Of a stretch of 37,123 nt of DNA, positions 2,991 to 37,123 are shown one piece after another. A program made the translations under genes and the position numbers. Positions within the stretch are counted from its first letter, which is position 1, and each line of letters begins with the position of its first letter. This DNA is from a virus. Location of the stretch: IMG/VR virus record IMGVR_UViG_3300021376_001850, positions 1 to 37,123 of that record. The stretch is one strand, 5' to 3'. Under the pieces are notes generated by a model. It was not told the DNA's origin and ran no database searches. It was given only the letters and a program-made list of their open reading frames with translations.

Positions 2991-3386
2991 ATGTCAGAAC
3001 AGTTTGACGAAACGTACTACACAAAAATGGTGGAAGAGTTTGTCTCGCAAAAGAAACTACTCAGCCAACTTGAGGCGAGGGTAGACAAAATCAAAAAAGA
3101 GTTGAGCACCGTTGTAGAACAGCATGGCACTCCCGACGACAGTGGACACATTTGGCTCAACGTCGGTGGACACGAACTCAAGCGTGAGCGTCGTGTAAGC
3201 AAGACATTCAACGCCGCCAACGCAGAACAATGGGCGAAAGAAAACGGTTTGTGGGATGACGTCAAAGAAATTGTGGAACGCCTTAGCGAAGACAAACTTC
3301 TCGCTGTTGCGTGGAACGACAAGTCCCTGTTGCCAACCATTCAAGGTTTTTACGTAGAGAAAGAAACATGGGCGTTCAAGGCGTGA
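2991..3386 (+). CDS. Hypothetical protein with N-terminal coiled coil
   Basis: I do not recognise this 131-residue protein. Residues about 8-45 form a likely coiled coil rich in Lys, Glu and Leu (for example KKLLSQLEARVDKIKKEL). After it comes a predicted mixed alpha/beta segment (HIWLNVGGHELKRERR) and a C-terminal helix. ATG 2991 follows GGAGGTGTGAA and begins one base after the SNF2 stop. Its position between a helicase and an ssDNA-binding candidate suggests a replication or recombination accessory role, for example a nuclease inhibitor or mediator, but no motif proves it. Confidence 0.75.
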   Translation: MSEQFDETYYTKMVEEFVSQKKLLSQLEARVDKIKKELSTVVEQHGTPDDSGHIWLNVGGHELKRERRVSKTFNAANAEQWAKENGLWDDVKEIVERLSEDKLLAVAWNDKSLLPTIQGFYVEKETWAFKA

Positions 3387-3811
3387 AAGACCCGTTGGAC
3401 CTCTTCAACGACCTTCCAGATTTTCCTGGTGGGCGAACTCCCAAAAACAGAAAAAAGGAAGATACCGCAATTGCCGAAGACCGCTTTAATGGCGCTAAGC
3501 CAAAACGGTATATCATAAACGGACAGGAAGTGCAGATGTTTACCATTGGTCAACTTGCCGTTGCATTGCGAAAACGACCATCAACGTTACGGGTGTGGGA
3601 ACATCGGGGTTGGATTCCAAAAGCCAAGTACCGAACACCTAAACCCACCAAGCAACAACTTCCAGAAAAACCTTCAAAAGGTAGGAGACTTTACAGTCTA
3701 GAGCAGGTAGAGTTCCTAGTGGAAGCAATAGACCGTTTCAAGATACATGACATTTACAATGCAGATTGGAACGGCTTCAGAAAACACATTAAAGAGCAAT
3801 GGCCCCAATAA
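3368..3811 (+). CDS. MerR-like helix-turn-helix regulator
   Basis: The protein (147 residues) has a disordered, charged N-terminus of about 55 residues. A MerR-type winged HTH follows at about residues 58-120: MFTIGQLAVAL, STLRVWEHRGWIP and then RRLYSLEQVEFL. This matches the family scheme TIGELA, TLRYYEEKGLL, YS-E-V. There is no long dimerisation coiled coil or metal-binding cysteine set after the HTH, so any effector domain is missing or minimal. I chose ATG 3368 over GTG 3311 because it overlaps the previous gene by only 19 bases and has a purine-rich leader. The five spacer-dyad promoters at 27.6-35.6 kb have the geometry MerR proteins act on, so this is a candidate regulator of them. That link is inference. 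Confidence 0.75.
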   Translation: MGVQGVKDPLDLFNDLPDFPGGRTPKNRKKEDTAIAEDRFNGAKPKRYIINGQEVQMFTIGQLAVALRKRPSTLRVWEHRGWIPKAKYRTPKPTKQQLPEKPSKGRRLYSLEQVEFLVEAIDRFKIHDIYNADWNGFRKHIKEQWPQ

Positions 3812-11910: not shown

Positions 11911-12087
11911 ATGGCACGAGGAAAAGACGAAGCCAACAATCCAAGACGAAGACCAATCATAAAAATGTATCCAGAGGCAGTAGAACAAGCAAAAGATGCG
12001 TACGCCTACAAGCATCCTTTTGAAAATTCTGAAACAGAAGAACGTGCAATGCGGCAATTAAAAAAGAAGGAAGATTTAGGTAACTAA
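11911..12087 (+). CDS. Small protein with RG-DE-NNPRRRP N-terminal tag (58 residues)
   Basis: Residues 1-15 are MARGKDEANNPRRRP, one of six instances of a shared N-terminal tag in this block. The remainder is a charged helix (YPEAVEQAKDAYAYKH, then EERAMRQLKKKED). It starts one base after the preceding stop and overlaps the next gene by one base (TAATG). Function is unknown; the tag suggests common localisation or a common binding partner. Confidence 0.68.
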   Translation: MARGKDEANNPRRRPIIKMYPEAVEQAKDAYAYKHPFENSETEERAMRQLKKKEDLGN

Positions 12088-24824: not shown

Positions 24825-25164
24825 TTTTTATGGAAAACCTTCAGTTGCCAAAAGTGTTTTTGTTCCAGAAATAGAACGCATGCAAAAAGCACTCAACGCC
24901 ATTGCCCCGTTGCTGATGAACAGCGCCGTTGACCTGCATCAGATTGCCAAAGATACAAACCTATCTTTGACCGAACTTCGCTATGACGGTTGGGAAGCAC
25001 TATTTAAATACATCAGAGAGTTGGAAGAAAAAGTAAAAAGGACAGAAGCAGAACTAGAAGCACATAATAAAAAAATGCGTGACTTGGTAATATTCGTAGA
25101 AGAAACGTCGCAAAAGGTGGTAAAACTTTATCGTGAGGGCACTCTCCGAAACGCAAATGACTAA
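24808..25164 (+). CDS. Hypothetical coiled-coil protein
   Basis: From ATG 24808 the product has 118 residues. The second half (about residues 65-110) is a strong coiled coil (ELEEKVKRTEAELEAHNKKM). The first half contains a helical segment LHQIAKDTNLSLTELRY that could be a small HTH. ATG 24787 is an alternative start. It ends in a one-base overlap with the whiB gene, so the two are coupled. Confidence 0.62.
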   Translation: MKHLFDFYGKPSVAKSVFVPEIERMQKALNAIAPLLMNSAVDLHQIAKDTNLSLTELRYDGWEALFKYIRELEEKVKRTEAELEAHNKKMRDLVIFVEETSQKVVKLYREGTLRNAND

Positions 25165-25562
25165 TGACGTGGAGAGACCAAGCCCTATGCAAGGGCAAGC
25201 ACATTGATTTGTGGTATCCGCCATTAGAAGCGGATAATCAAGAGGAGTATTATGCTGTTGCTCGTGAGGTGTGTCATGCCTGTCCTGTGTGGAGGAAATG
25301 CTTAAACGACGGGATGAATGAGCAATGGGGAATGTGGGGAGGACTTACACCACTAGAAAGAACTTCTTTTAGTAAAAACCCAAAGAAAACCGCAATAAAG
25401 CCACACGGCACTGTTACAAGATACCGACAAGGTTGTTATTGTAAAAAATGTGTTGCCGTAAACGACGCAATAAAACAACAAAATAAAGATTTTAGCGTTG
25501 TTCCAACTATGCAGGACAAAGATTTTGATTTGTTCACGGTTTTGTATCAACTCCTTCAGTAA
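25164..25562 (+). CDS. whiB: WhiB-family regulator with extra C-terminal Cys motif
   Basis: The 132-residue protein carries the four WhiB cysteines, C9, C37, C40 and C46 (VCHACPVWRKC), and the signature EQWGMWGGLTPLER (about 53-66). WhiB proteins hold a [4Fe-4S] cluster and bind the primary sigma factor to alter promoter choice. Unlike typical phage WhiB proteins, it continues with HGTVTRYRQGCYCKKC (C91, C93, C96) and a 35-residue tail. This HGT-RY-GC-C-C motif recurs in actinobacterial and actinophage proteins. It may add a second metal site or a DNA contact. Confidence 0.9.
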   Translation: MTWRDQALCKGKHIDLWYPPLEADNQEEYYAVAREVCHACPVWRKCLNDGMNEQWGMWGGLTPLERTSFSKNPKKTAIKPHGTVTRYRQGCYCKKCVAVNDAIKQQNKDFSVVPTMQDKDFDLFTVLYQLLQ

Positions 25563-26220: not shown

Positions 26221-27129
26221 CATAGTAATCCGTCAAACAAGACGACCACACAACAGGAGACAAACATGTTGATTGATACAAAAGACCTTTGCGGAACAGC
26301 AGAAGCCGCAGCCGTGCTAGGTGTTGTGAAACAACGTATTCACACACTTCGTAAGCGTGCTGACTTCCCACAACCCATCGTTGTTCTGGCTGCTACTCCA
26401 CTTTGGGATGGAAACGCTTTGCTCGCATTTAAGGCAACGTGGAAACCAGTTCGTTCTCAGGACACGACCACGCAGGAACAGACGACCACACATTAATGAG
26501 AATAGGCGTTGTATCCGCTGACCGCCTACATCCATCAATAACGCCAGACAAACTTCCTCATTGGGGCGGTTCTGGTTGGGCACGTGTAGCAAAGTACCTT
26601 CCGCACCTGAACTACGACTACGTGGTGGGTCGGCTGGTGTGGCACTACACCGAACTAAAAATTGAGGACGACGAGGGCAATCTTAACGACGTAGACACCA
26701 TCATCATGCAACGGATGATGAACGAGGGCTTATCAGAACACATCAAGAAGGCACGAGCCATTGGTCAAGTCATTATCAATGACGTGGACGATTGGTATTG
26801 GGGGCTTGACCCAAGCAACGGTGCGTGGAAAGCATCTCACCCAAAGCACAGTCCAAAAGAAAACATTAACCATTACAGGAGAATACTTGGGGTCAGCGAC
26901 CTGTTGTTGGCATCAACTCCGTTCTTGTACGAACGCATCAGTCAATGGAACAAGAACGTGGTGTTATTTCCCAACACGGTTGATACCAAAGCCTTCGTAA
27001 AACACGACCACGCAGAAAACGATTATGTATCTGTTGGCTGGGTTGGCTCTACCGCACACCGAAGCGGCGACCTACAAACGTTGCGTGGAGTGCTTCATCA
27101 ACTGACGACCACGCAGGATACGACCACAC
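25859..27129 (+). repeat. Seven dispersed copies of ACGACCAC(A/G)C
   Basis: The decamer occurs at 25859, 26242, 26464, 26482, 27004, 27105 and 27120, all on the + strand, with A or G at position 9 and often followed by AG or AGGA. Two pairs are 15-18 bases apart. Copies lie in three genes and one intergenic gap. In two genes they fall in the same frame and encode TTTQ or TTTH, and in others a different frame, so protein sequence alone does not explain them. Confidence 0.6.
26266..26496 (+). CDS. AlpA/excisionase-like HTH protein
   Basis: The 76-residue protein contains TKDLCGTAEAAAVLGVVKQRIHTLRKRADFP, followed by PLWDGNALLAF, the arrangement of small MerR-like or AlpA/excisionase HTH proteins (helix-turn-helix, then wing). 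The C-terminal tail is Thr/Gln-rich because it runs through two copies of the dispersed decamer. ATG 26266 follows AGGAGACAAAC. It overlaps the glycosyltransferase gene by one base (TAATG), so it may regulate that cassette. No integrase is in view. Confidence 0.75.
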   Translation: MLIDTKDLCGTAEAAAVLGVVKQRIHTLRKRADFPQPIVVLAATPLWDGNALLAFKATWKPVRSQDTTTQEQTTTH

Positions 27130-27589: not shown

Positions 27590-27620
27590 TTGACACGGAT
27601 AGTATCTCGTGTAGTAACTT
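27590..27620 (+). promoter_or_regulatory. Repeated promoter/operator, copy 1
   Basis: TTGACA (27590-27595), a 19-bp spacer and TAACTT (27615-27620). The spacer holds GGATAGTATCT, one mismatch away from the dyad of the other copies. It lies in the 74-base gap after the glycosyltransferase gene and would drive the small ORF at 27644 and the SNF2 gene. AGGAGG lies seven bases after the -10, so the leader is very short. Confidence 0.8.
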
Positions 27621-27643
27621 TGGGGTAGGAGGCAAGTGGAACT

Positions 27644-27796
27644 GTGACGTACCGACGCACACGACAGATGCGGAAGCAGGCTGACCGTGAGGTGAACACC
27701 TTGCTGGACAGGCTGTACGACGAAGCATTGTCACAACGTAACACCGAACCTGTATCATCATCGGTGGACAACAAACAGGAGGAACATAGTGGCTAA
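27644..27796 (+). CDS. Small basic helical protein (50 residues, GTG start)
   Basis: The ORF begins at GTG 27644 with TYRRTRQMRKQADREVNTLLD, a basic amphipathic helix, and ends in a polar tail. It is the first frame downstream of promoter copy 1, and AGGAGG (27627-27632) is its ribosome site, 11 bases away. Its end overlaps the SNF2 start by 8 bases. Without it the SNF2 gene would have an unusually long leader. The GTG start and short length keep confidence moderate. Confidence 0.5.
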   Translation: MTYRRTRQMRKQADREVNTLLDRLYDEALSQRNTEPVSSSVDNKQEEHSG

Positions 27797-29696
27797 CGTC
27801 GCCGTACTGCCCAAACAGCAAGTTCAGATAAGGGCATCGCTTATTGCTCGTAGTATGCCTTTGGGATTACTTGACGACACGCAAGTGGACGAGTGGGTCA
27901 GGGCACAGAACCTTGATGAACTTACTTTCGTGAGTGCCAACGACCTGTTGGAGTATTTGTCGGTGTTGCCCGTGACACGCACCGCATCGCAGGCGCACCT
28001 GCCGATGAGCGCAACACGTATCCTCGTGAACAAGAGAAGGGGCGAGTGTGCGTTGTGTAAAGGTGATGTGCTCGCTGGCTTGGGGCTGTATGTGTTTAAC
28101 GATGGTGGTTGGCTGACGTATCACAACAGCGAGGACTGTCCCTCCGTTACTGAACTGCCCGAACTGAAATGGGACAGCGTGACGTTGCTGGCAAACTTGG
28201 AACTGTTTGTGTACGGGTTGGAACGCATGCCAAAGGTTGTGGTGTCCCGTCCCGAACTCGTGGAACTGTCCAAGTCCCACAACGCTGAACTTGGCTTTGA
28301 CTTGGACTTGCCGTTGTTGCCGTACCAACGTGCTGGCGTGAAGTACGCATTGGAGGCTCGTCGTGTGTTGCTGGCAGACAGCATGGGCTTGGGCAAGACC
28401 GCACAGGGCATCGCATTGGCATTGGATACCACGATGAGCAAGGGTAAAACGCTCGTAGTAGTTCCACCGCACCTGCGCCTCCAATGGGTGAAAGAGTTTC
28501 GTCGCTTCGCACCGTCCATCAAGGTCATCACGGTGAAAGGACGCAAACCACACTCACTTGCCAAGCACGATGTTCTCATCATTGGTGACAGCGTAGTGAG
28601 TGCGTGGGCAACGAAGTTGGCTGGCAAGTACGACACGCTCATCGTGGACGAGGCGCATAGCATCAAGAACGAAAAGGCACAACGCACACGTGGTGTCGGA
28701 TACATCGCCAATAGTATTCCTGCGAGTGGCATCGTTGCGCTTATGTCGGGAACTCTTACACCGAACCGTCCAAGTGAGTTGCTAAGCCCTCTCCGCATCA
28801 TCGGCAGGTTGGACAATGTGTTTGGTTCACGCAAGCAGTTTCTCATCAAGTATTGCGATTATCGTATTGTGAACGGATTTCCCAACATGAACGGTGCGAG
28901 CAACACAACTGAACTGAACACGGTACTGCGTGGCACGTGTATGGTACGCAGGCGCAAGGAGGACGTGTTGTCTGACCTGCCTGCCAAGCGCAGGGCACAA
29001 CTTGACATTGAGTTAAACAACGAGGAAATGAACGAGTACCGCACGGCTGAGCGTGACTTCCTGCGCTGGGTGATGGAGACGTACGGTGCGGAGGCATGGC
29101 AACGGGCAAGCAAGGCAGAAGTCATTACTCGCATGAACAAGTTGCGTGAACTGTTGGGCATCGCCAAAGTCAATGCCGTTGTAGAGCACGTGAACTCGCT
29201 TATCGCAGAGGGAGAACAGGTTGTGGTGTTCGCATACCATCGGAAAGTGCTCAATGCGTTGTATGAGAAGTTGGAGGGTCACGGCGTGGTCATGGTGGCA
29301 GGAGGTTCTACCCCCGAAGCCAAGCAACGGTACGTGGAGAAGTTTATGAGCAAGCAGGTAAGTGTATTCTTAGGACAGTACGAGAGCGCAGGCACGGGAC
29401 TGAACCTGACCTCCGCATCGCACGTGGTGTTGGCTGAGATGCCGTACAGCCCGTCCACAGGACAGCAGGCTGAGGACAGGTGTCATCGCATCGGACAGGA
29501 CAACCATGTGGTGTCGTGGTGGATTACGGCTGTGGACGCAGAGTTCCCCACCATTGACATGCGCCTGTGGAGTTTGCTGAACGCAAAGGCTGAAAGCACA
29601 TCGGCTGTGCTGGACGGGTGGGCTGAGAACCTAAACGCTGACGCAGGCACGATGACAGCAAAACTGTTACAGGACATGCTCAATGATTATCGCTGA
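27789..29696 (+). CDS. SNF2-family helicase (second; SMARCAL1-like)
   Basis: The 635-residue protein has Walker A MGLGKT (199-204), DEAH (287-290), LMSGTLTPNRPSELL and the C-terminal pair YESAGTGLNLTSASHVVL and QQAEDRCHRIGQ. The last is the SNF2 motif VI with its arginine finger region. Before the helicase core, CALC (C87, C90) and later H112 and C117 may form a zinc site. SMARCAL1/HARP-like enzymes anneal or reverse branched DNA at forks. GTG 27789 follows AGGAGGAACATA. It is the main gene of transcription unit 1 and a more canonical SNF2 than the one at 1.4 kb. Confidence 0.92.
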   Translation: MANVAVLPKQQVQIRASLIARSMPLGLLDDTQVDEWVRAQNLDELTFVSANDLLEYLSVLPVTRTASQAHLPMSATRILVNKRRGECALCKGDVLAGLGLYVFNDGGWLTYHNSEDCPSVTELPELKWDSVTLLANLELFVYGLERMPKVVVSRPELVELSKSHNAELGFDLDLPLLPYQRAGVKYALEARRVLLADSMGLGKTAQGIALALDTTMSKGKTLVVVPPHLRLQWVKEFRRFAPSIKVITVKGRKPHSLAKHDVLIIGDSVVSAWATKLAGKYDTLIVDEAHSIKNEKAQRTRGVGYIANSIPASGIVALMSGTLTPNRPSELLSPLRIIGRLDNVFGSRKQFLIKYCDYRIVNGFPNMNGASNTTELNTVLRGTCMVRRRKEDVLSDLPAKRRAQLDIELNNEEMNEYRTAERDFLRWVMETYGAEAWQRASKAEVITRMNKLRELLGIAKVNAVVEHVNSLIAEGEQVVVFAYHRKVLNALYEKLEGHGVVMVAGGSTPEAKQRYVEKFMSKQVSVFLGQYESAGTGLNLTSASHVVLAEMPYSPSTGQQAEDRCHRIGQDNHVVSWWITAVDAEFPTIDMRLWSLLNAKAESTSAVLDGWAENLNADAGTMTAKLLQDMLNDYR

Positions 29697-29701
29697 CCGA
29701 C

Positions 29702-29732
29702 TTGACACGGATAGTATCCCGTGTGATAACGT
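29702..29732 (+). promoter_or_regulatory. Repeated promoter/operator, copy 2
   Basis: TTGACA (29702-29707), a 19-bp spacer with the full dyad GGATAGTATCC, and TAACGT (29727-29732). It follows the SNF2 stop by a few bases and precedes the DUF932-type gene. Outer arms ACAC and GTGT extend the dyad imperfectly, with one extra C on the right side. Confidence 0.82.
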
Positions 29733-29750
29733 GATGTTAATACCAACATC
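29733..29750 (+). promoter_or_regulatory. 5' leader hairpin of the DUF932 transcript
   Basis: GATGTT and AACATC form a perfect 6-bp stem with a 6-base loop immediately downstream of the -10 box of promoter copy 2. A transcript starting about seven bases after the -10 would begin within the left arm, so the element may act as DNA (operator) rather than RNA. It is absent from the other four promoter copies. Confidence 0.45.
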
Positions 29751-29770
29751 TACCATAGGAGGTAGGAACA

Positions 29771-30778
29771 ATGAGTAAGGAAACATACGAGTGGCTGAAC
29801 AAGTATTGCCTCATCGGTTACACGAAACAGCGTGGAACGGCTTGGCACTACCGCATGGACAGCCAGAGCACAGAGCCGAACCATTACGAGGGTGCTATCC
29901 CCGTTGAGGACGTGCTTCGTCGTCTGTATTCGTGGGAAGCACAAGAAGCCCCCGTGTACGTCAAGTGGAACGACACGTACCGCTTGGAGACTGACCGCAA
30001 AGCCATCGTGCGTAGCGACAATGGTGACGTGCTGGGCATGTTTAAGGACACCTACGCTATTCACCAATACAAGTCATGGCTCATTGAGAGCGTGTCTCAC
30101 CTGTTGGACGACAGTCTCAACATTGGTAGCGCAGGCATCTTAAAGAACGGTGCTGTCAGTTTCGTCAGCGTGGAAATGCCTGAGAGCATCAAGGTGCTGG
30201 ACGGTTTCACCGTGCGCCCGATGTTGCTGGCAACGACGAGCCACAATGGTTCTATCTCCACGACCTACAAGAGCGTGTCCACTCGTGTTGAGTGCGACAA
30301 CTTGCTGGCTCGTGCGCTGAACGAGGACACACAAGCGTTCCGTGCCCGTCACAGCAAGAACAGCAACTTCCGCTTACAGAGCGTTCGTGATGCTCTTGGC
30401 TTCGTCCACCGTATGACGGAGGACATCGTGGCTGAGGTGAACAAGTACGCCAATGTCAAGGTGTCTGACCGTGAGTGGGAAGCCATCGTGAACAAGTTGA
30501 TGCCGATTAACACGGACGCAAACGTACCCAAGCAGGCTGTCTCACGCATTGAGAACAAGCAGGAACGCATCAAGGACATGTACCGCAACGACCCACGTGT
30601 CGCACCGTTCGTAGGCACGGCACTTGGTGTAATCCAAGCGTTTAACACGTTTAATCAGCACGTAGTCGGCAAGGACGACAACCGTGTTGAGCGCAACATG
30701 ATGAACGCACTCACGGGCAAGGTCTTTAATCAGGACGAGCAGGTCATGAAAGTCATCAAAGACTTGGTGCTCGTGTGA
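29771..30778 (+). CDS. DUF932 (phage/plasmid-like) protein
   Basis: The 335-residue protein fits the DUF932/TIGR03299 family: an N-terminal KQRGTAWHYR and IPVEDVLRRLYSWEAQ, then RKAIVRSDNGDVLGMFKDTYAIHQYKSWL, and a long helical C-terminal half with an LALG-type segment near the middle (FVGTALGVIQAF). The family is common in actinophages and on plasmids; its function is unknown. It has a strong AGGAGGTAGG site and its own promoter (copy 2), and is translationally coupled to the second whiB gene (GTGA). Confidence 0.88.
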   Translation: MSKETYEWLNKYCLIGYTKQRGTAWHYRMDSQSTEPNHYEGAIPVEDVLRRLYSWEAQEAPVYVKWNDTYRLETDRKAIVRSDNGDVLGMFKDTYAIHQYKSWLIESVSHLLDDSLNIGSAGILKNGAVSFVSVEMPESIKVLDGFTVRPMLLATTSHNGSISTTYKSVSTRVECDNLLARALNEDTQAFRARHSKNSNFRLQSVRDALGFVHRMTEDIVAEVNKYANVKVSDREWEAIVNKLMPINTDANVPKQAVSRIENKQERIKDMYRNDPRVAPFVGTALGVIQAFNTFNQHVVGKDDNRVERNMMNALTGKVFNQDEQVMKVIKDLVLV

Positions 30779-31095
30779 CCGATAAAGCGTGGCTGTCACG
30801 TGCCAAGTGCCGTGAACCTGAGTTGTCTCCCCTGTTTAGCAAGGTGTTTGACAACGACGCAAAGGCGAACACGGCGAACATAGCAAGGCGTGTTTGTTTG
30901 GACTGCCCTGTCAATGTGGAGTGCTACAAGTTGGCAGTTGCCAACAAAGAAAGGTGGGGTGTGTGGGGTGGCGTGAACTTCGGACGCTACACCAGCATCA
31001 TCACTCAACGCACCAACTTTGACATGGAAGTTCGTAGGCGTAAAACTAAGCGTAAGTACGTCAAGAGTGGCAAATACGTGAAGGTGAAGTCATGA
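30775..31095 (+). CDS. whiB: WhiB-family regulator (second)
   Basis: The 106-residue protein has C12, C41, C44 and C50 (VCLDCPVNVEC) and the turn ERWGVWGGVNF. A Lys/Arg-rich tail (RRRKTKRKYVKSGKYVKVK) takes the place of the basic DNA-contacting end seen in host WhiB proteins. It begins at GTG 30775 in a 4-base overlap with the DUF932 gene. Being inside one of the five repeated-promoter units, it could modulate sigma-factor use at those promoters; that is inference. Confidence 0.92.
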   Translation: MTDKAWLSRAKCREPELSPLFSKVFDNDAKANTANIARRVCLDCPVNVECYKLAVANKERWGVWGGVNFGRYTSIITQRTNFDMEVRRRKTKRKYVKSGKYVKVKS

Positions 31096-31334
31096 AAGTG
31101 TCGTGGCTCACCGACGACGACGCAGACAGGCTGTTGTGGTTTGCCATCGGCTACCTGAACTGCGCCGAACGTCGCACCAACTACCTGTCACACATCATTG
31201 GTAAAGACGAGTGGGTGGAGTTTAATGACAAGTTTGACCTACGCTTTGTCACCAACAAGGACGAGCACGGAGTGTGGGGCACTACCGTCACCGCACATGA
31301 CCGTGAACGTGAGCACGAGTTGTGGCTTGTATGA
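31092..31334 (+). CDS. Hypothetical small protein (80 residues)
   Basis: A small acidic protein with helices DADRLLWFAIGYLNCAERR and an aromatic beta-prone C-terminus (EHGVWGTTVTAHD). No domain is recognised. Its ATG overlaps the whiB stop by 4 bases and its own stop overlaps the next small ORF. Confidence 0.7.
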   Translation: MKVSWLTDDDADRLLWFAIGYLNCAERRTNYLSHIIGKDEWVEFNDKFDLRFVTNKDEHGVWGTTVTAHDREREHELWLV

Positions 31335-31417
31335 GCGACTTCTTTATTGCCTCATCGTGCGTAATACTAATCCTGTGCTACTACTTGTTTAGTAAAGCGT
31401 TAAGGGACAGGACTTGA
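31331..31417 (+). CDS. 28-residue single-pass membrane peptide
   Basis: The ORF encodes MSDFFIASSCVILILCYYLF and a short basic tail SKALRDRT. The hydrophobic core spans about 17 residues, enough for one membrane helix with a positive inside end. Its ATG overlaps the previous stop (ATGA). Its own TGA lies inside the TTGACA box of promoter copy 3. Small holin-like or inhibitor peptides look like this, but function is unproven. Confidence 0.5.
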   Translation: MSDFFIASSCVILILCYYLFSKALRDRT

Positions 31418-31444
31418 CACGGATAGTATCCCGTGTGGTAAGTT
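31414..31444 (+). promoter_or_regulatory. Repeated promoter/operator, copy 3
   Basis: TTGACA (31414-31419), a 19-bp spacer with GGATAGTATCC and TAAGTT (31439-31444). It overlaps the end of the membrane-peptide ORF and heads the longest of the five units, ten genes from 31473 to 34232. Confidence 0.82.
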
Positions 31445-31472
31445 AAAAACAGGACAACAAACAGGAGGCAAC

Positions 31473-31919
31473 ATGACCAAGTTATTCACACCAAAGTTCC
31501 GCATCAAGGACGAGCACCGTGACATTTACGGCACAGAGCAAATCCGCCACCGTGTCATCAAAGCACGCACGATGCCAAAGGCACTTGACCAAGTGAACAG
31601 GCTCACCCGTTGGGGCTGGACTGTAACGCATTTCGGTGGAGTTACGCCACAAGTAACCATTACCAAGAAAGAACTTGTGTGCCTTGACGTGGCTGAGACA
31701 CAGTTCCCACGTCGCTATGACGACGAGACCAAGACGGTCATTGACGTGTACCACAAGTACGCAACTACGTGGGCACTTACGTGGAAAAAGAGGGTGCGTA
31801 ACGTCAATAGCATGCTGGCTCGTGGTTACGAAGTCACGCTTGACCTCAACACGATGTTTGGATACCGCACGGTGTTCCACAAGACCTACGTCAAAGACAT
31901 GGCAGAGGAACGGGCGTGA
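31473..31919 (+). CDS. Hypothetical protein (148 residues)
   Basis: A basic protein with mixed alpha/beta prediction (KALDQVNRLTRWGWTVTHFGG, TKKELVCLDVAETQF). It has no recognised motif. It is the first gene after promoter copy 3, with AGGAGGCAAC before ATG 31473, so it is probably the best expressed of its unit. It overlaps the next gene by 4 bases (GTGA). Confidence 0.72.
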   Translation: MTKLFTPKFRIKDEHRDIYGTEQIRHRVIKARTMPKALDQVNRLTRWGWTVTHFGGVTPQVTITKKELVCLDVAETQFPRRYDDETKTVIDVYHKYATTWALTWKKRVRNVNSMLARGYEVTLDLNTMFGYRTVFHKTYVKDMAEERA

Positions 31920-32140
31920 GCAAGTACGCTGAGCACCGTAAGGCGCATTGGGACACCGTTGGCTGGTTTCACACGCTGGCAGGACGTTTGCCCGACGTGG
32001 AGAGCAACGAGGAGTGGAACGCATTGGCAACACAACTCGCCTCCATCTCCGATGAAGTTCCCTTTCTCCGCAAGCATTGTCGTGAGTTGGGCATCAACTT
32101 CGTACTGAACGACAACTGCGAGGCGATTATCTATGCCTAG
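31916..32140 (+). CDS. Hypothetical small protein (74 residues)
   Basis: A small protein beginning at GTG 31916 with SKYAEHRKAHWDTVGWFHTL, predicted to be helical, with a short beta C-terminus (INFVLNDNCEAIIYA). No family is recognised. It overlaps the preceding stop by 4 bases and the next start by 8. Confidence 0.68.
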   Translation: MSKYAEHRKAHWDTVGWFHTLAGRLPDVESNEEWNALATQLASISDEVPFLRKHCRELGINFVLNDNCEAIIYA

Positions 32141-32450
32141 CATTGGACGATACATCGTCACGTGGTCTATGGCGTATGACGACGCAGAGGACGAACACGA
32201 GGCAGTAACGATGGCTCTCGCATCATTGGACGACGTTATCAAGCACCACGAGGGGGCAACGACGTTCATGGTTGAGGACACCAAGACAGGCACGGTATCG
32301 GTGCTGACTTCCGACGTAGCCATGCGCCACGTCCATAACACCATCATCAACATTGACCAAAGCATCAACTACGCACCTAGTATTACCATTAACGCTGGTG
32401 GCAACGGTAAGCGTGGCAAGGACGGAAAGAAAGGCAAGGACGGGAAATGA
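32133..32450 (+). CDS. Hypothetical protein with Gly/Lys tail (105 residues)
   Basis: The first 70 residues look like a small alpha/beta domain (GRYIVTWSMAYDDAEDEHEAVTMAL split by helices and strands; TFMVEDTKTGTVSVLT). Residues 70-88 are beta-prone (NTIINIDQSINYAPSITIN), and the tail reads GGNGKRGKDGKKGKDGK. The purine-rich tail codons also supply a ribosome site for the next gene. Function is unknown. Confidence 0.7.
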   Translation: MPSIGRYIVTWSMAYDDAEDEHEAVTMALASLDDVIKHHEGATTFMVEDTKTGTVSVLTSDVAMRHVHNTIINIDQSINYAPSITINAGGNGKRGKDGKKGKDGK

Positions 32451-32674
32451 CCAAGAAACACAAAGTCACGTATTACGTGTATCACTCTGGAAGTGGAACT
32501 CTCATTAACGCTGATGACGGAGTAACCGTATTTAGTGACGAGGCATTTACCAATGATGAACGTGAAGCCCTTGACGATGGCGACACCCTCCCTGCCGAAG
32601 GCGCAGGTGTACGACTTATGACGCTTATTCGCCACTACAACAAAGCCGATGATAAGGGTAAGAACGGCAAATGA
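32447..32674 (+). CDS. Hypothetical small protein (75 residues)
   Basis: A small acidic domain with a beta start (KVTYYVYHSGSGTLI) and a GKNGK tail similar to the end of the previous gene product. It has ATGA overlaps at both ends. No family is recognised. Confidence 0.68.
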   Translation: MTKKHKVTYYVYHSGSGTLINADDGVTVFSDEAFTNDEREALDDGDTLPAEGAGVRLMTLIRHYNKADDKGKNGK

Positions 32675-32955
32675 TTACTCGCTACGTCTTACATCTCACG
32701 TGTAGTAAAGACAACCCCGATGGTACGCCACGTCGCATGCTGTTGGTGTTCCTGTCGGCAGGTGGCAACAATGTAAGTGCTGGGGCTAACGGCTACATAC
32801 ACAAACTCATCATGGTACATGAGGGCGAATACTGTAAAGAGACACCGCCCAACGACGCACATGCGTTCGTGGTAACACCATCATCGTACAACGAGTGGGT
32901 AAAGAAAGCAGAAGCACGCCTTGACAAGGCTGAGTGGAACAAGAGGGTGAACTAA
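32671..32955 (+). CDS. Hypothetical small protein (94 residues)
   Basis: The product has a beta-rich first half (RYVLHLTCSKDNPDG, RRMLLVFLSAGG) and a helical C-terminus (YNEWVKKAEARLDKAEWNK). No domain is recognised. It is coupled upstream by ATGA and downstream by TAATG. Confidence 0.68.
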   Translation: MITRYVLHLTCSKDNPDGTPRRMLLVFLSAGGNNVSAGANGYIHKLIMVHEGEYCKETPPNDAHAFVVTPSSYNEWVKKAEARLDKAEWNKRVN

Positions 32956-33224
32956 TGAGCAAGCAAGAAGTTTCGTTGGAAGCGATGGAGAAAATCGTTG
33001 AGGAGTTGCCGTTTGGTAACTACATCAACGTCGCCAAGCACGTAACATACGACGTGCTTCGTATCGTTGAGCATCTTATTGAGGAGGGCATCGTTGTGGA
33101 CGAGGAGAGCATAATGGAACGTGTGGAGGGGTACGCAAAGGACGACTTCTCATGTGGTTGGGGACACGAGGTGCGCCTGAAAGACCTCGTGTTCACGGAC
33201 GAGCACGGAGAGGAAATCATCTGA
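32955..33224 (+). CDS. Hypothetical small protein (89 residues)
   Basis: Mostly helical and acidic (LEAMEKIVEELPFGNYINVAKHV; VLRIVEHLIEEGIVVDEE), with a beta-prone C-terminus. The helices suggest a small HTH-like or dimerising domain. I took ATG 32955, which overlaps the upstream stop by one base. The longer in-frame start at 32934 would run into the previous gene. Confidence 0.68.
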   Translation: MSKQEVSLEAMEKIVEELPFGNYINVAKHVTYDVLRIVEHLIEEGIVVDEESIMERVEGYAKDDFSCGWGHEVRLKDLVFTDEHGEEII

Positions 33225-33412
33225 TGACCAACCCTTACTATCCCAACCATCGTATTCCATACCCAAAGGACGAGGATTACGTGCCAGAGGGACATGCTTG
33301 CGAGCATTGTGGAAGTCTGGAAGTTATTTGGTTTGACAAGAGCGCAGGCGAAGTAGAGTGCTACGACTGTGGAAGTATGTATTTCATCAACAAGGAGGTT
33401 ATGACATGTTAA
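33224..33412 (+). CDS. Zinc-ribbon mini-protein (62 residues)
   Basis: A polar, Pro/Tyr-rich start (NPYYPNHRIPYPKDEDYVPEG) leads to CEHCGSLEVIWF and VECYDCGSMYF, two CxxC knuckles 18 residues apart, a classic zinc ribbon. ATG 33224 overlaps the previous stop (TGATG). Its role is unknown. Confidence 0.72.
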   Translation: MTNPYYPNHRIPYPKDEDYVPEGHACEHCGSLEVIWFDKSAGEVECYDCGSMYFINKEVMTC

Positions 33413-33972
33413 TCGTGTGTTCACAAACAGGAACGGTGTTGGAGGCAGAACATTGTGCGCTTCTTGACCCCGACGAACTCACTCCCGAAGCACGTGACGA
33501 GTGGGAGGAAGCCTATTGTAACGACACTCACCTTGCTAGTTTCGCAGCGTTGTACGGAGTGCCCGTAATGAGGGTCTATGAACAACGTTACGAACAGGAA
33601 CACCTTGCTGGTTCGTACAAGACACTTGCCGATGAGACCCGTAAGGAGTTGGCTAATCGTCACCTGCGTAGCGGAGACTTGACATGGGGCAACTGTATCC
33701 CGTTTAGTCCGTTGGCGTTGCGTGAACTTCTCACAAACATCGTAGAGGAGACTGAACATCTTGACAATGAAACGTACATGGCTCTTTATTTCGGCGCAGA
33801 GTTCGCAAACGATGAGTGGCTGACATTGGTTGGAGAAACAGCATTGTCTGGCGACGAAGCGTGGATTACCTACAAATCCTCAGTTGTTGAGGCAGTACGC
33901 CACGTTTATGTAAATACTATTAGAACTAGCGGTGCAGAACCCCACATAAAGGGCAAGGGGAAAACATCATGA
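33406..33972 (+). CDS. Hypothetical protein (188 residues)
   Basis: From ATG 33406, preceded by AAGGAGGTTATGAC, the product is acidic and mostly helical. It contains a segment THLASFAALYGVPVMRVYEQRY that resembles an HTH (helix, turn GVP, recognition helix) and the later ETYMALYFGAEFANDEWLTL. A basic GKGK tail ends it. It could be a small regulator; no family is recognised. Confidence 0.7.
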   Translation: MLIVCSQTGTVLEAEHCALLDPDELTPEARDEWEEAYCNDTHLASFAALYGVPVMRVYEQRYEQEHLAGSYKTLADETRKELANRHLRSGDLTWGNCIPFSPLALRELLTNIVEETEHLDNETYMALYFGAEFANDEWLTLVGETALSGDEAWITYKSSVVEAVRHVYVNTIRTSGAEPHIKGKGKTS

Positions 33973-34232
33973 CAAAAGCAGTATCACATTTATGGGACAT
34001 GAGCGAAGCGTATCCTTATCCCTCTCCGTTCACGCTGTATCTTGACCTTATTGGCTGGAACACCATGCGGTATGGAAAGCACATGGCAGACGGTTGCGAG
34101 TGTGGCGTGTATGAAGCACGCCTCATTGGTGATGCGCTCATTGAGTTCTCAGACGACCCTGTTGAGGTGGGCAAGTACGTCAATGTCATCATGCTCGCTG
34201 ACCAACTGACCATTGATTACGACAGGACTTGA
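33969..34232 (+). CDS. Hypothetical small protein (87 residues)
   Basis: A small protein with an aromatic N-terminal half (AYPYPSPFTLYLDLIGWN) and an acidic C-terminal helix. It has no recognised motif. Its TGA stop lies within the TTGACA box of promoter copy 4, as for the membrane peptide at copy 3; both end with the codons for Asp-Arg-Thr. Confidence 0.68.
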   Translation: MTKAVSHLWDMSEAYPYPSPFTLYLDLIGWNTMRYGKHMADGCECGVYEARLIGDALIEFSDDPVEVGKYVNVIMLADQLTIDYDRT

Positions 34233-34259
34233 CACGGATAGTATCCCGTGTGGTACATT
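34229..34259 (+). promoter_or_regulatory. Repeated promoter/operator, copy 4
   Basis: TTGACA (34229-34234), a 19-bp spacer with GGATAGTATCC and TACATT (34254-34259), followed by TGTAAC, or rather GTAAC, and TAGGAGG. It is identical to copy 5 from the -35 box through the ribosome site (about 43 bases). It drives the genes from 34278 to 35558. Confidence 0.83.
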
Positions 34260-34277
34260 GTAACTAGGAGGCACAAC

Positions 34278-34523
34278 ATGGCAAAGGAAACAGCAGAACA
34301 CGCACAACGCAGAACGGTAATCAACAGGGAGTTTGGCTCTCTCGTTGGTAAGACCATCAAGCGTGTGCGTCCAATGACCATCAATGAGTGCGACTTGTTC
34401 GCATGGGACTACGAGGCTGACTATGCGTTCCTCGTGGAGTTCACGGACGGTACGGTAATCGTTCCGTCGCAAGACCCCGAAGGTAATGGCGCAGGACACC
34501 TGTTCGTTGAGAGCGTGCGCTGA
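34278..34523 (+). CDS. Hypothetical small protein (81 residues)
   Basis: A helical basic N-terminus (TAEHAQRRTVINREFGSL) and a beta-rich second half (FLVEFTDGTVIVPSQDPEGNGAG). I recall similar DGT-x-DPEGNG-G endings in small actinophage proteins without assigned function. ATG 34278 follows AGGAGGCACAAC directly after promoter copy 4. Confidence 0.72.
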   Translation: MAKETAEHAQRRTVINREFGSLVGKTIKRVRPMTINECDLFAWDYEADYAFLVEFTDGTVIVPSQDPEGNGAGHLFVESVR

Positions 34524-34524
34524 C

Positions 34525-34752
34525 ATGCCGAAGTTCATCAAGCATTGTTCCAAGACCATTGACATTGGTATTATCGTGGAAGCAGACACGTTGGAGGACG
34601 CAAAGAACATGTCCGTAGGTACGTGGGAGAACAGGGTAGCGTTCGTTTGCGACGGTGGCTGGGACGTGTTCTACGATACCTCAGCAGTAGGTGACGACGA
34701 GCAGTTAATCCCGTACACGGACGACGAGTTGCGAACGTTCTTGGTGTTCTAA
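34525..34752 (+). CDS. Hypothetical small protein (75 residues)
   Basis: A small beta-rich protein (IDIGIIVEADTLEDAKN, RVAFVCDGGWDVFYD) with an acidic C-terminus. No motif is recognised. It starts one base after the previous stop and overlaps the next start by one base (TAATG). Confidence 0.68.
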   Translation: MPKFIKHCSKTIDIGIIVEADTLEDAKNMSVGTWENRVAFVCDGGWDVFYDTSAVGDDEQLIPYTDDELRTFLVF

Positions 34753-35558
34753 TGACCAAACAACACTACACGCTGGATTACGACACGTGGGCAAAGCAGT
34801 TTAAGCCCATGATTAACTACATTGACCCCGACGCTTCGTTTAATCAGACGATGTTTGAGACGTACGGCGATGAGGTTGAGCATGTGTGTGACAGGGCTAA
34901 TACTCCCGATACCGCACTCACCGTGTGGACGTACATTGATGGCTTTCTTGGCACGTACATTGTTGAGGGCTATCGTCACGTGAACCGCATTGGACATTTC
35001 GTCACAGAGAAGCCTGCCGATGCCAATGCCACGTACGAGATTACGGTGGACAAGTACGACGACAACGACGAGTGGGACAGCACGACGAACGACGGTATCC
35101 CTGAGTTGGAAGTGTTGGAGACACCGTACTTCGCTGGTTGTGACCGCATTTGGGCACGCATTGACGGACAGGATAGCGAACTGTCCTACGAGCAGGTTCG
35201 CACGTCTCGTGCCATCTACACGAGAGAGGAAACGTTTGATGGAGAGCAGACGATAATGCTGAGCGACGGACGCAAAGCACAGGTACAGTCCATTGACCTG
35301 CGTTACAACAACAAAGAACCCATCGGTGCTCAAATCACGTATTATTGGAAAGATAGTGACCCAGACCGTCAAGGTTTGTGGGGAGGTTACGTCTCGTTCG
35401 GTGATTATGACGAGGCAACTAGCACCGATACCTACGGTAATCACGATGACTTTATTCACTATTATTTCCCCGATGGCGTAATGGAGATGGTGGCATACAT
35501 GATGGAGAATAAGGGAGAGTTCACCATCGTTGAGTATGTGTACGCATACCACGAATAG
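34752..35558 (+). CDS. Hypothetical acidic protein (268 residues)
   Basis: The largest gene of transcription unit 4. The product is acidic and rich in Asp, Tyr and Thr, with repeated beta-prone segments (ATYEITVDKYDDNDEWD, AQITYYWKDSDPDRQ, GLWGGYVSFGDYDEA). Its charge could suit a DNA-mimic or anti-host protein, but no family is recognised. It ends before a gap with a large hairpin. Confidence 0.7.
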   Translation: MTKQHYTLDYDTWAKQFKPMINYIDPDASFNQTMFETYGDEVEHVCDRANTPDTALTVWTYIDGFLGTYIVEGYRHVNRIGHFVTEKPADANATYEITVDKYDDNDEWDSTTNDGIPELEVLETPYFAGCDRIWARIDGQDSELSYEQVRTSRAIYTREETFDGEQTIMLSDGRKAQVQSIDLRYNNKEPIGAQITYYWKDSDPDRQGLWGGYVSFGDYDEATSTDTYGNHDDFIHYYFPDGVMEMVAYMMENKGEFTIVEYVYAYHE

Positions 35559-35567
35559 TCAAGATGT

Positions 35568-35619
35568 TCCTCCACGTAGGTGCGTTACATACACCGCCCA
35601 CAACCGTCTGCGTGGAGGA
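35568..35619 (+). terminator. Long hairpin between units 4 and 5 (possible terminator)
   Basis: TCCTCCACG (35568-35576) and CGTGGAGGA (35611-35619) form a perfect 9-bp stem. Inside the loop GGTG and CACC can form a second, smaller stem. It lies between the stop of the acidic protein gene and the -35 of promoter copy 5, only one base from TTGACA. There is no T-tract. It may end or process the upstream transcript, or bind a regulator next to the promoter. Confidence 0.5.
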
Positions 35620-35620
35620 C

Positions 35621-35651
35621 TTGACACGGATAGTATCCCGTGTGGTACATT
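35621..35651 (+). promoter_or_regulatory. Repeated promoter/operator, copy 5
   Basis: TTGACA (35621-35626), a 19-bp spacer with GGATAGTATCC and TACATT (35646-35651). It sits in a true intergenic gap, unlike copies 3 and 4, so its conservation is not due to coding. TAGGAGG follows nine bases after the -10. It drives the last visible unit, which continues past the window end. Confidence 0.83.
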
Positions 35652-35668
35652 GTAACTAGGAGGTAGTT

Positions 35669-35875
35669 ATGAAGCAAGATGACTTTGAGAAAGCATTAGC
35701 CAACGTCCGTTTGGACAAAGGCGTTGTGTGGCGTAGTGAAGTGACTGAGGACATGGTTGCCCACCTTAACGACGCTGAGTTACAGCAGTTAGTGGACGAT
35801 TTGGACGACGCTGTGTTTCACATTTGCGAAACGTACAAGGCATCTGTTGTCAGTATTCATCACGAGGAGAAGTGA
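35669..35875 (+). CDS. Hypothetical small acidic protein (68 residues)
   Basis: A helical acidic protein (QDDFEKALANVRLDKG; NDAELQQLVDDLDDAVFHICETY), first gene of unit 5, with TAGGAGGTAGTT before ATG 35669. No family is recognised. It has a simple helical-bundle character. Confidence 0.7.
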   Translation: MKQDDFEKALANVRLDKGVVWRSEVTEDMVAHLNDAELQQLVDDLDDAVFHICETYKASVVSIHHEEK

Positions 35876-35876
35876 C

Positions 35877-36035
35877 ATGACAAACGAACCTATTGAGTGG
35901 TACTGCGAGTGCCCGATGGAAAGGCTGTACGGTAAGAGTGAAGTATGTAAATACTGCCGTACTGTCGTGTTCCACGACGACCCTGATTACGCCGAGCACA
36001 TGGGCTTTACGCTCGTGGACGGGGAGTGGGTGTGA
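35877..36035 (+). CDS. Cys-rich mini-protein (52 residues)
   Basis: The product contains WYCECPMERLYG and CKYCRTVVFH, five cysteines and a histidine spaced as in a small zinc ribbon. It starts one base after the previous stop. Function is unknown. Confidence 0.68.
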   Translation: MTNEPIEWYCECPMERLYGKSEVCKYCRTVVFHDDPDYAEHMGFTLVDGEWV

Positions 36036-36036
36036 C

Positions 36037-36414
36037 ATGGGCGCAGACTTGATGTTCTCCATTTGTGAAATGGAAGCCACGAAAGAGCAGGCGTACAACA
36101 ACGCACGCCACCTGTCAGCCCGTGAACGGTGCGACAACACGGCGAAGTTATTAGAGGAAGTGTGTGGTATTTCTTTCTGGTATGACACCGAACCAACAGA
36201 GCAAGAAGTGTACGACTATCTTGTTGCCTGTATTGATGAAGTGTATTCCTCGCAACGTAGGAGGGACTGTGGGTTGTTTCACGTGGACAAACGTGAGTTT
36301 TACATCACCGCAGGCATGTCGTGGGGAGACGCACCTACTGACGCATGGGACGCATTTAGCGTGTGTGAAACATTGGGACTTACGCTCAACCAACCGAACT
36401 TGGACTTGTCATGA
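36037..36414 (+). CDS. Hypothetical protein of MGADLMF type (125 residues)
   Basis: The product begins MGADLMFSICEMEATKEQA and has helices over the first 70 residues and an aromatic C-terminal part (FYITAGMSWGDAPTDAWDAF). Proteins starting MGADL-F and containing TGGMSWGD-P-like motifs are common, uncharacterised, in actinophages and actinobacteria. ATG 36037 follows the previous stop by one base. Confidence 0.72.
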   Translation: MGADLMFSICEMEATKEQAYNNARHLSARERCDNTAKLLEEVCGISFWYDTEPTEQEVYDYLVACIDEVYSSQRRRDCGLFHVDKREFYITAGMSWGDAPTDAWDAFSVCETLGLTLNQPNLDLS

Positions 36415-36866
36415 CCGCAGGAGTGAACTACTATCTCGTGAGCGACGAGGACTTGGTATTGCGACGTGACCCAGCGTTCTACGTCAATGACGAGCAGGCA
36501 CACGAACTTGTCGCAGTAATCACATCGGGAGTGCCCGATGACGCACGGGAAATCCGTGTGTATTGCGACGGAGAAATGCGTATCCACGTGTGGAAGTCCA
36601 AGAAGGCTCGTGAAGCCAACGAAGTGCTTGATGATGTAATCCGCTATGTGAGTGACCTCGTTAGTATTGCCAATACCGATAAGGAACTCAATGACTTGGA
36701 GGAACGCATTGAGTGGGTGAACAACGCATGGTTTGACCTGTACGCATACGGCGATGGTATCACCGATGGTTGGCTGAACTGCGTTCACTATGACATACAG
36801 GAAGCAGTAGCACAGGCAGTAGCACTCATGGACGATGAGGAAGTGTGGAAGGAACTGACAACATGA
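36411..36866 (+). CDS. Hypothetical acidic protein (151 residues)
   Basis: An acidic helical protein (DEQAHELVAVITSG; KAREANEVLDDVIRYVSDLV; KELNDLEERIEWVNNAWF). No motif is recognised. It has 4-base ATGA overlaps with both neighbours. Confidence 0.7.
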   Translation: MTAGVNYYLVSDEDLVLRRDPAFYVNDEQAHELVAVITSGVPDDAREIRVYCDGEMRIHVWKSKKAREANEVLDDVIRYVSDLVSIANTDKELNDLEERIEWVNNAWFDLYAYGDGITDGWLNCVHYDIQEAVAQAVALMDDEEVWKELTT

Positions 36867-37042
36867 CACCCATTATCACCGACCACGATGGAAAGACATG
36901 CCCCAACTGTGGGGACACCATGCGTGGAGACAAGAGCAACATACTGCCCACGTGGAGTGACTACCACGACAACGTGGTGTGTTGGTGGTGTGCTTCGCAC
37001 CCTCACGAAACTGACAGGTATGGAAGCGAGGCAACGTTGTGA
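36863..37042 (+). CDS. Zinc-ribbon mini-protein (59 residues)
   Basis: KTCPNCGDTMRG and VVCWWCASHPH give two CxxC knuckles and flanking histidines, a zinc-ribbon design. It overlaps the previous stop by 4 bases (ATGA). Function is unknown. Confidence 0.68.
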   Translation: MTPIITDHDGKTCPNCGDTMRGDKSNILPTWSDYHDNVVCWWCASHPHETDRYGSEATL

Positions 37043-37123
37043 GCGAGTACGCATGCGACAAGTGTGGGACGGAAGTGCCCAATGGTTCGGGACACTACCC
37101 CAATGGGGACACGGGCGACAGGG
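37039..37123 (+). CDS. Zinc-knuckle protein, 3' truncated by window
   Basis: A frame opens at GTG 37039 in a GTGA overlap with the previous stop and runs off the window: SEYACDKCGTEVPNGSGHY. It has one CxxC knuckle and a later His. It continues the run of small zinc-binding genes; too little is visible for more. Confidence 0.5.
   Translation, partial: MSEYACDKCGTEVPNGSGHYPNGDTGDR

Follow-up and report, generated by a model that had tools for sequence, protein, structure and literature searches.

A repeated promoter and spacer box in an actinobacterial virus point to one shared genetic switch

Promoter elements and genes of the accessory block

The window, i.e., the whole stretch of 37,123 nucleotides analysed here (genome G000), carries a helicase gene, a DUF932 gene, two WhiB-like genes and a block of small accessory ORFs, with five copies of one promoter-like element. 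The features are as follows.

3368..3811, + strand: MerR_1-like helix-turn-helix protein (PF13411, E 3e-5; alignment), proposed as the regulator in the initial annotation
25164..25562, + strand: WhiB-like protein 1 (WhiB1; PF02467, E 1e-13), encoded outside the promoter block; conserved across every class
26266..26496, + strand: 76-aa helix-turn-helix protein (HTH_17/excisionase-like; profile matches, alignment)
27590..27620, + strand: predicted promoter 1; -35 TTGACA at 27590-27595, box GATAGTA at 27598-27604, -10 TAACTT at 27615-27620 (exact match)
27644..29696, + strand: unit 1, preceded by promoter 1; 50-aa ORF at 27644-27796 and DNA helicase gene at 27789-29696
29702..29732, + strand: predicted promoter 2, ahead of the DUF932 gene; -35 at 29702-29707, box at 29710-29716, extended -10 TGaTAACGT with the -10 at 29727-29732
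29771..30778, + strand: DUF932 gene (phrog_1221), first of unit 2 (Pfam PF06067, E 2e-32; phrog_1221, E 5e-80)
30775..31095, + strand: WhiB-like protein 2 (WhiB2; PF02467, E 4e-14), overlapping the end of the DUF932 gene
31092..37123, + strand: rest of the accessory block, units 2-5; tightly packed small ORFs (ORF map), continuing past the window end
31414..31444, + strand: predicted promoter 3; -35 at 31414-31419, box at 31422-31428, extended -10 TGgTAAGTT with the -10 at 31439-31444
34229..34259, + strand: predicted promoter 4; -35 at 34229-34234, box at 34237-34243, extended -10 TGgTACATT with the -10 at 34254-34259
35621..35651, + strand: predicted promoter 5; -35 at 35621-35626, box at 35629-35635, extended -10 TGgTACATT with the -10 at 35646-35651

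The helicase of unit 1 matches PHROG 62 DNA helicase (E 3e-97) and has orthologues in close relatives. WhiB2 displays the four-cysteine pattern and the GVWGG turn of the Wbl family in the alignment and is similar to the WhiB chains of solved structures 8dy7 and 7kif.

The five elements consist of TTGACA, a spacer of 19 bp in five of five cases and TAnnnT, all on the + strand. Each lies directly ahead of one gene block, with a fixed -35/-10 spacing and a ribosome-binding site and start codon downstream. The full element reads TTGACA-CGGATAGTATC[T/C]CGTGT[A/G][G/A], followed by TAACTT, TAACGT, TAAGTT, TACATT and TACATT in copies 1 to 5, respectively. An exact sequence search confirmed the positions given in the initial annotation and placed every copy on the + strand, GGATAGTATCC being exact in copies 2 to 5 and differing at one base in copy 1. 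Exact matches to the 17-mer TTGACACGGATAGTATC number five in the window, and allowing three mismatches revealed no sixth; 0.10 copies were expected in shuffles, none of which reached five. The pattern TTGAC-n-TGnTAnnnT was found four times with a spacer of 19 (shuffle mean, 0.08) and never with any other spacer from 14 to 23.

All five elements have the features of actinobacterial sigma-A promoters, i.e., a TTGAC-like -35, a TAnnnT -10, a distance of about 16-20 bp and a location upstream of genes, and in four of them (copies 2 to 5) a TGn ahead of TAnnnT extends the -10. The conserved box, [C/G][C/G]GATAGTA, sits in the spacer directly behind the -35, at about -29 to -23; ahead of TTGACA there is merely a short (G/C)AC. 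In copies 3 and 4, the upstream gene ends within TTGACA, whose TGA serves as its stop codon. Copies 4 and 5, reported earlier to be identical through the ribosome site, indeed share 47 bases from GGAC (34225 and 35617) to AGGAGG. In both, the Shine-Dalgarno sequence starts 6 nt past the -10, so that the predicted leader is shorter than 20 nt.

Conservation of the array in related genomes

A search of 2.9 million viral contigs with the pattern of this element (class I) returned matches confined to this phage lineage. Positions 1-25000 of the window had no nucleotide match among 50,697 phage records, and Madraxi, Trogglehumper, Shotgun and Fryberger, which are cultured phages that have the DUF932 gene, showed no TTGACA-box array in the gaps read. 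Arrays were found in G003 and in the 92-kb relative G004, which has 13 such promoters on one strand, packed into one 14-kb block at 22.0-36.0 kb; the equivalent genes of that block gave few family matches. The 19-bp architecture recurs in the related contigs G003, G013 and G014. TTGAC-19-TGnTAnnnT occurs 3 times in G003 (shuffle mean, 0.04), 11 times in G004 (0.19), 8 times in G013 (0.2) and 6 times in G014 (0.11), and matches at other spacers are few in these genomes and in the window. Elements orthologous to promoter 1 precede the same gene in G002, G003 and G004, those orthologous to promoter 2 occur in G003 and G004, and promoter 3 has its orthologue at 11925 in G003. The relatives strongly support the prediction that the elements are promoters, ahead of successive units of an accessory block as first described.

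The G004 copies reveal which parts of the element are kept. TTGAC is present in 13 of 13; the columns of TTGAC and GATAGTA carry about 1.2-1.8 bits and the next seven positions 0-0.7, while the T and G of the extended -10 reach 1.8 and 1.2 bits, respectively. The box is found within one mismatch in 12 of the 13 copies, and the seven bases next to it are randomised, as is the flanking sequence. A search blind to the box yielded 14 minus-strand matches, 12 of them inside the block and with the box (at most two mismatches) and two outside the block and without it.

The 11-bp dyad noted in the initial annotation, centred near -25, is real in G000, but it is not what the relatives conserve. In G004, conservation is confined to the left half, GATAGTA directly after the -35, and the bases of the right arm are random: mirrored bases beyond ±2 of the centre matched each other in 5, 2, 5 and 4 of 13 copies versus 5.0, 2.5, 4.2 and 4.4 expected from the column composition. 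In G003, the dyad has lost its pairing at ±4 and ±5. TAGTAT within the dyad was rejected as an alternative -10, its final T being lost in 8 of the 13 G004 copies.

Within G000, and likewise within G003, the identity of the copies extends past the box, which suggests that recent copying of promoter cassettes explains part of their sameness. Two G003 promoters carry identical variant elements.

Orthologous promoters in sister lineages carry boxes other than GATAGTA, and at the position of promoter 2 classes II to V have different elements. The box is TTGRTGACRA with an 18-bp spacer in G011 (nine sites; shuffle mean, 0.04), ATnCTAC in G013 and AnAGYG in G014. Classes III and IV are one genome each; the class II pattern, used to probe for relatives, is unspecific and matched 83 stretches. 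In class V relatives, the promoters lack a -35, and a palindrome, TGTTCCACGTGGAACA, lies at the orthologous genes, centred near -24.5 or -35.5, i.e., at sites one helical turn apart. This palindrome is parS-like. The box is lineage-specific; as the relatives have retained promoters at these genes and differ in the box, the factor that reads it would be lineage-specific as well.

Possible readers of the box

A repeated promoter with a common box in an actinobacterial virus points to one shared genetic switch. The reading that we favour, and consider reasonably probable, is that host sigma-A promoters form the array and that a single regulator, binding in the spacer, controls them. Being of the sigma-A type (TTGACA, a 19-bp spacer and the extended -10 TGnTAnnnT), the elements would serve as promoters for the main RNA polymerase of the host, with one at the start of every unit in a single block of accessory genes. 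One DNA-binding factor would read [C/G][C/G]GATAGTA at every copy, so that the whole block would be switched together. Both the start of transcription at the elements and the reading of the box by a protein we infer from sequence. As the -35 and the -10 are both near consensus, we lean tentatively, for the window, toward the box being an operator through which promoters that would otherwise be strong are shut down; activation through the box appears somewhat less likely, about as likely as no regulator at all. Transcription programmes in phages of uncultured actinobacteria are, to our knowledge, almost unknown. The array represents a defined, testable predicted regulon in a group whose genes mostly lack function, and a case in which orthologous promoters stay in place with their sigma elements retained but differ, lineage by lineage, in the regulatory box.

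The near-consensus -35 and extended -10 would also suit strong early promoters that serve the unmodified host polymerase and have no regulator, having been duplicated and homogenised by recombination, with the box a mere trace of shared ancestry. The 47 bases that copies 4 and 5 have in common and the identical variants at two G003 promoters fit such a history. However, conservation of the G004 box amid randomised neighbours is not predicted by copying alone, and we are aware of no contact by which the polymerase would read bases -30 to -23 like this. We consider this account rather unlikely.

WhiB2 is a candidate regulator of the array. Its gene belongs to unit 2, inside the putative regulon, and directly follows the DUF932 gene in almost every close relative having that gene. 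WhiB2 is also the fastest-evolving regulator: it is 35% identical between G000 and G004 versus 93-96% for its neighbours, and in the pair G011 and G013, which have different boxes, it is 49% identical versus 90-95% for the helicase and DUF932 proteins and 89% for WhiB1. That last value, despite the different boxes, led us to reject WhiB1 as the box reader. The 76-aa helix-turn-helix protein was rejected as well, since its helix KQRIHTLRK is identical in aligned representatives of classes I to V, i.e., in lineages with different boxes. Scans of G004 with Pfam (83 proteins) and PHROG (35 of those) covered about half of its called proteins. The likely DNA-binding or regulatory families among the matches listed (25 of 32 Pfam families for one protein set) were WhiB, MerR_1, HTH_36, HTH_29, SpoVS and weak ParB-like matches only, with no further regulator beyond these.

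WhiB2 bound to region 4 of sigma-A, alone or with a partner, might read the box and activate the array, including its own gene. Its rapid divergence, its place in unit 2 and the class V sites without a -35, one helical turn apart, are consistent with such sigma appropriation, as is the binding of Wbl proteins to the main sigma factor (PMC7157823). WhiB7/WblC-dependent promoters likewise combine actinobacterial sigma-A, TAnnnT and an accessory box adjoining the -35, and this phage has WhiB proteins. However, the WblC box precedes the -35 by 3 bp (PMC7157823), whereas here the box is downstream of the -35, in the spacer. Moreover, G000 and G004 have a common box although their WhiB2 proteins are just 35% identical, and a consensus -35 with an extended -10 needs no activator. 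A literature search on WhiA/WhiB promoters gave no result. We consider this mechanism unlikely. Doubtful, too, is the wider scheme in which the box behind the -35 is read by a sigma-A-bound phage WhiB-like protein, with or without a partner, in an array that includes the promoter of that protein, protein and box change together, and sister lineages rewire the regulon, one of them onto the parS-like palindrome at its two positions. Phage WhiB proteins are common yet poorly understood. If one does read the box, they would have a direct role in reprogramming sigma-A, and the sister lineages would provide matched protein-site pairs for specificity mapping.

It is improbable that the box is an operator for a host regulator, a host protein that varies by lineage. 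In its favour, a chromosomal ParB would read a site such as the palindrome that class V relatives carry at the orthologous genes. The relatives searched, several of them fragments in which a phage ParB may be missed, gave no ParB_N match that passed the family cut-off, and a phage ParB behind the class V palindromes was set aside on that ground. No actinobacterial operator known to us matches the class I box.

Very improbable, finally, is activation by a MerR-family dimer that occupies the dyad of an over-long spacer and twists the DNA so that the promoter becomes active, the mechanism of which the 19-bp spacer and dyad had been called the hallmark. MerR-regulated promoters do have their site between a consensus-like -35 and -10 in a long spacer, and a MerR_1-like protein is encoded at 3368-3811. 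Nevertheless, activation through the dyad was rejected on the non-conservation of the dyad in G004 and G003 and on the alignment of the regulator. The helix-turn-helix is nearly identical in G004 and in G010 and G011, whose box differs, the protein also has a relative in G017, a genome without these promoters, and the sequence past the helix-turn-helix and wing is too short for a MerR dimerisation coil. Nor need 19 bp be unusual in the phylum: it is the modal -35/-10 distance (BTGACN/TANNNT) of ordinary promoters in Streptomyces avermitilis (PMC8780764), which may not be the host of the phage, while other actinobacterial promoter sets favour 17-18 (PMC8079986, PMC7157823). A regulator bound in the spacer is still likely, but it is not likely to be a MerR protein.

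Resemblance to other repeated phage elements

The middle promoters of T4 (MotA box, AsiA) similarly form a set of many phage promoters with a common short box near -30, used by the host polymerase. Their box adjoins or replaces the -35, and their -10 is good and often extended. In contrast, the class I promoters retain a full -35 TTGACA; those of class V do lack one. No MotA or AsiA relative was detected in the scans made. The stoperators of Cluster A (L5-like) phages are asymmetric repeated sites that overlap a -35 TTGACA. Most of them are not promoters, whereas every copy here has a -10 at a fixed spacing and no class I element lies outside promoter positions in the window or in G004.

Cluster K mycobacteriophages also have short repeats ahead of many non-structural genes, which vary by subcluster: the start-codon-associated SAS, with the consensus GGGATAGGAGCCC, and ESAS, paired 17-nt repeats (PMC12699233). 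Here, unlike SAS and ESAS, the repeat is an entire promoter. In Cluster O (Corndog), too, a single phage genome holds numerous copies of a dyad element, the 17-bp palindromes, of which several are intergenic; those of Corndog are scattered genome-wide, about a third inside genes, with no attached -10 (PMC4351075).

Repeated predicted promoters and their gene block

The 17-mer TTGACACGGATAGTATC occurs five times in the 37,123-base window, an IMG/VR virus record, and allowing up to three mismatches revealed no sixth copy there (mean in shuffled sequence, 0.10).

27590, + strand: copy 1, GGATAGTATCC with one mismatch
29702, + strand: copy 2, GGATAGTATCC exact, TGn before the -10
31414, + strand: copy 3, as copy 2; stop codon of the upstream reading frame is the TGA within the -35
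34229, + strand: copy 4, as copy 3; AGGAGG starts 6 bases past the -10
35621, + strand: copy 5, as copy 2; AGGAGG starts 6 bases past the -10

The spacer between TTGACA and TAnnnT is exactly 19 bases in all five copies. Exact matches and the shuffle rate thus confirmed the five elements described in the initial annotation. The stop codons within the -35 and the proximity of AGGAGG to the -10 imply that the predicted promoters fit tightly between genes and that their leaders would be very short.

The block downstream of these elements encodes a helicase, a DUF932 protein and a WhiB-like protein (WhiB2), whose gene overlaps the 3′ end of that for DUF932; the other reading frames there are small and closely packed. 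A second WhiB-like protein (WhiB1), a 76-residue helix-turn-helix protein and a MerR_1-like protein are encoded outside the block. By its gene content this is an actinobacterial phage. Phage isolates yielded no nucleotide relatives of positions 1 to 25000, and the best matches of the DUF932 gene, in Rhodococcus, Gordonia and Microbacterium phages, are 37 to 40% identical. Positions 22360 to 23763 encode a predicted queuine tRNA-ribosyltransferase-like protein (phrog_887, E 5e-30) kept in most close relatives.

Lineage-specific boxes in related viruses

IMG/VR scans with the helicase and DUF932 proteins as queries yielded close relatives (G001, G002, G003 and the 92-kb G004, then G010 to G014, G016 and G018) and more distant ones (G005 to G007 and G009). 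Most are fragments, and their genes were called with a simple script. When TTGAC-n-TGnTAnnnT was counted for spacers of 14 to 23, the number of sites peaked at 19 in the window's genome (4), G003 (3), G004 (11), G013 (8, with three further sites at 18) and G014 (6), for shuffle means of 0.04 to 0.2 at that spacing. The GATAGTA box lies directly behind the -35. G004 has 13 copies on one strand, between 22.0 and 36.0 kb, and no box-bearing copies elsewhere on its contig.

Alignment of the G004 copies, initially chosen with an ATAnTA-containing pattern, showed that TTGAC is kept, followed by [CG][CG]GATAGTA, seven positions without conservation, and the TG, TA and T of the extended -10. A box-blind search of G004 at 19 bp returned 14 minus-strand sites; the 12 inside the block have the box (two mismatches at most) and the two outside do not. 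The initial annotation had also proposed a dyad in the spacer, which proved not to be a conserved feature. Mirrored bases at ±1 to ±6 about the central G matched in 11, 13, 5, 2, 5 and 4 of the 13 G004 copies, when column composition predicted 11.0, 13.0, 5.0, 2.5, 4.2 and 4.4, so nothing outside the box points to a dyad. In 6 of 13 copies the outer ACAC/GTGT pair is kept, but its right half shares bases with the extended -10.

Sister lineages carry other boxes:

G010, G011, G012 and G018: TTGRTGACRA, 18-bp spacer (nine sites in G011 versus 0.04 expected)
G013: ATnCTAC
G014: AnAGYG

Classes III and IV comprise one genome each. Several of these promoters precede the same genes as in the window (helicase, DUF932). 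Judged by sequence, the array is a variation on a known type, consisting of repeated, predicted phage promoters whose spacer holds a box that differs between lineages. T4 middle promoters similarly have a box near -30 used with host polymerase, but there it replaces the -35 (PMC6755090), and WblC sites, unlike these, are found upstream of the -35 (PMC7157823). The SAS/ESAS of cluster K (PMC12699233) and the palindromes of cluster O (PMC4351075) are also repeated in actinophages but take other forms.

Possible mode of action and candidate readers of the box

The 19-bp spacer with its internal dyad had been taken as a hallmark of MerR-type activation, a reading that is not supported. This length is the mode in Streptomyces avermitilis (PMC8780764), and although the S. 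lividans average is 17.4 and WblC promoters prefer 17 to 18 (PMC7157823), spacer length alone demands no activator. With a consensus -35 and an extended -10, host polymerase alone should suffice for these predicted promoters, so that a box retained between the two would most simply be an operator. We lean slightly toward shut-off rather than activation in the lineage with the GATAGTA box (class I).

The MerR-like, helix-turn-helix and WhiB1 proteins were rejected as readers of the box because they are conserved across lineages with differing boxes. In all classes aligned, WhiB1 (25164 to 25562) is extended at its C-terminus, and the extension contains another conserved pair of cysteines (RYRQxCxCxxC). 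G011 and G013 share 90% identity in the helicase, 95% in DUF932 and 89% in WhiB1, but only 49% in WhiB2; between the window and G004 the values are 96, 93, 84 and 35%. By these comparisons WhiB2 is the only predicted regulator of the window changing as fast as the boxes. The box is nevertheless shared by the window and G004, whose WhiB2 proteins differ greatly, and a link between WhiB2 and box change is therefore no more than suggestive. Among the families listed in Pfam scans covering 83 G004 proteins, no other obvious regulator appeared.

Palindromes and stem-loops in distant relatives

Class V relatives (L011, L012, L013, L059 and L060; 65 to 74% identity at helicase/DUF932) have the perfect palindrome TGTTCCACGTGGAACA ahead of successive gene units, with nine copies within 10.7 kb of L011 (2760, 4716, 6224, 6907, 8329, 9075, 9569, 10140 and 10625). 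In most cases with a callable downstream -10, the centre of the palindrome lies at -35.5 (±1) or -24.5 (±1), counts that include orthologous promoters and are thus not independent. These positions are one helical turn apart, without a -35. The class I dyad is centred at -25, making the spacer position common to both classes. Given the missing -35 and the phasing by one turn, class V looks more like activation. The palindrome resembles parS, the ParB site; it is also common across viral contigs generally, and no ParB_N gene above the cut-off was found in the five class V fragments. Near the promoter block of G013 (class III), parS-like sites TGTTTCACGTGAAACA and TGTTTCACGTGGAACA occur at C1:17886 and 19017.

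More distant relatives, about 55% identical (L067, L069, L074, L084, L086, L108 and others), have a single stem-loop some 40 nt ahead of the DUF932 gene. Its core hardly varies (GGTA/GATA-GTTT/GATT-TATC), and its arms, of up to 17 bp, vary with compensating changes. Some resemble the class I element, as in L108 (ACACGGATAG...CGTGTGGTAC). In Gordonia phage Fryberger (14342 to 18951), the gaps between small genes 3′ of the DUF932 gene, mostly about 80 nt, contain diverse stem-loops and share a GAGAGAGGAAAGA ribosome site. Microbacterium phage Shotgun has a repeated intergenic cassette like GTCGACTAGACTATAGGTGTAAGCACAACCG, in gaps such as 15776 to 15986 and 19203 to 19270, which is probably that phage's own repeated promoter.
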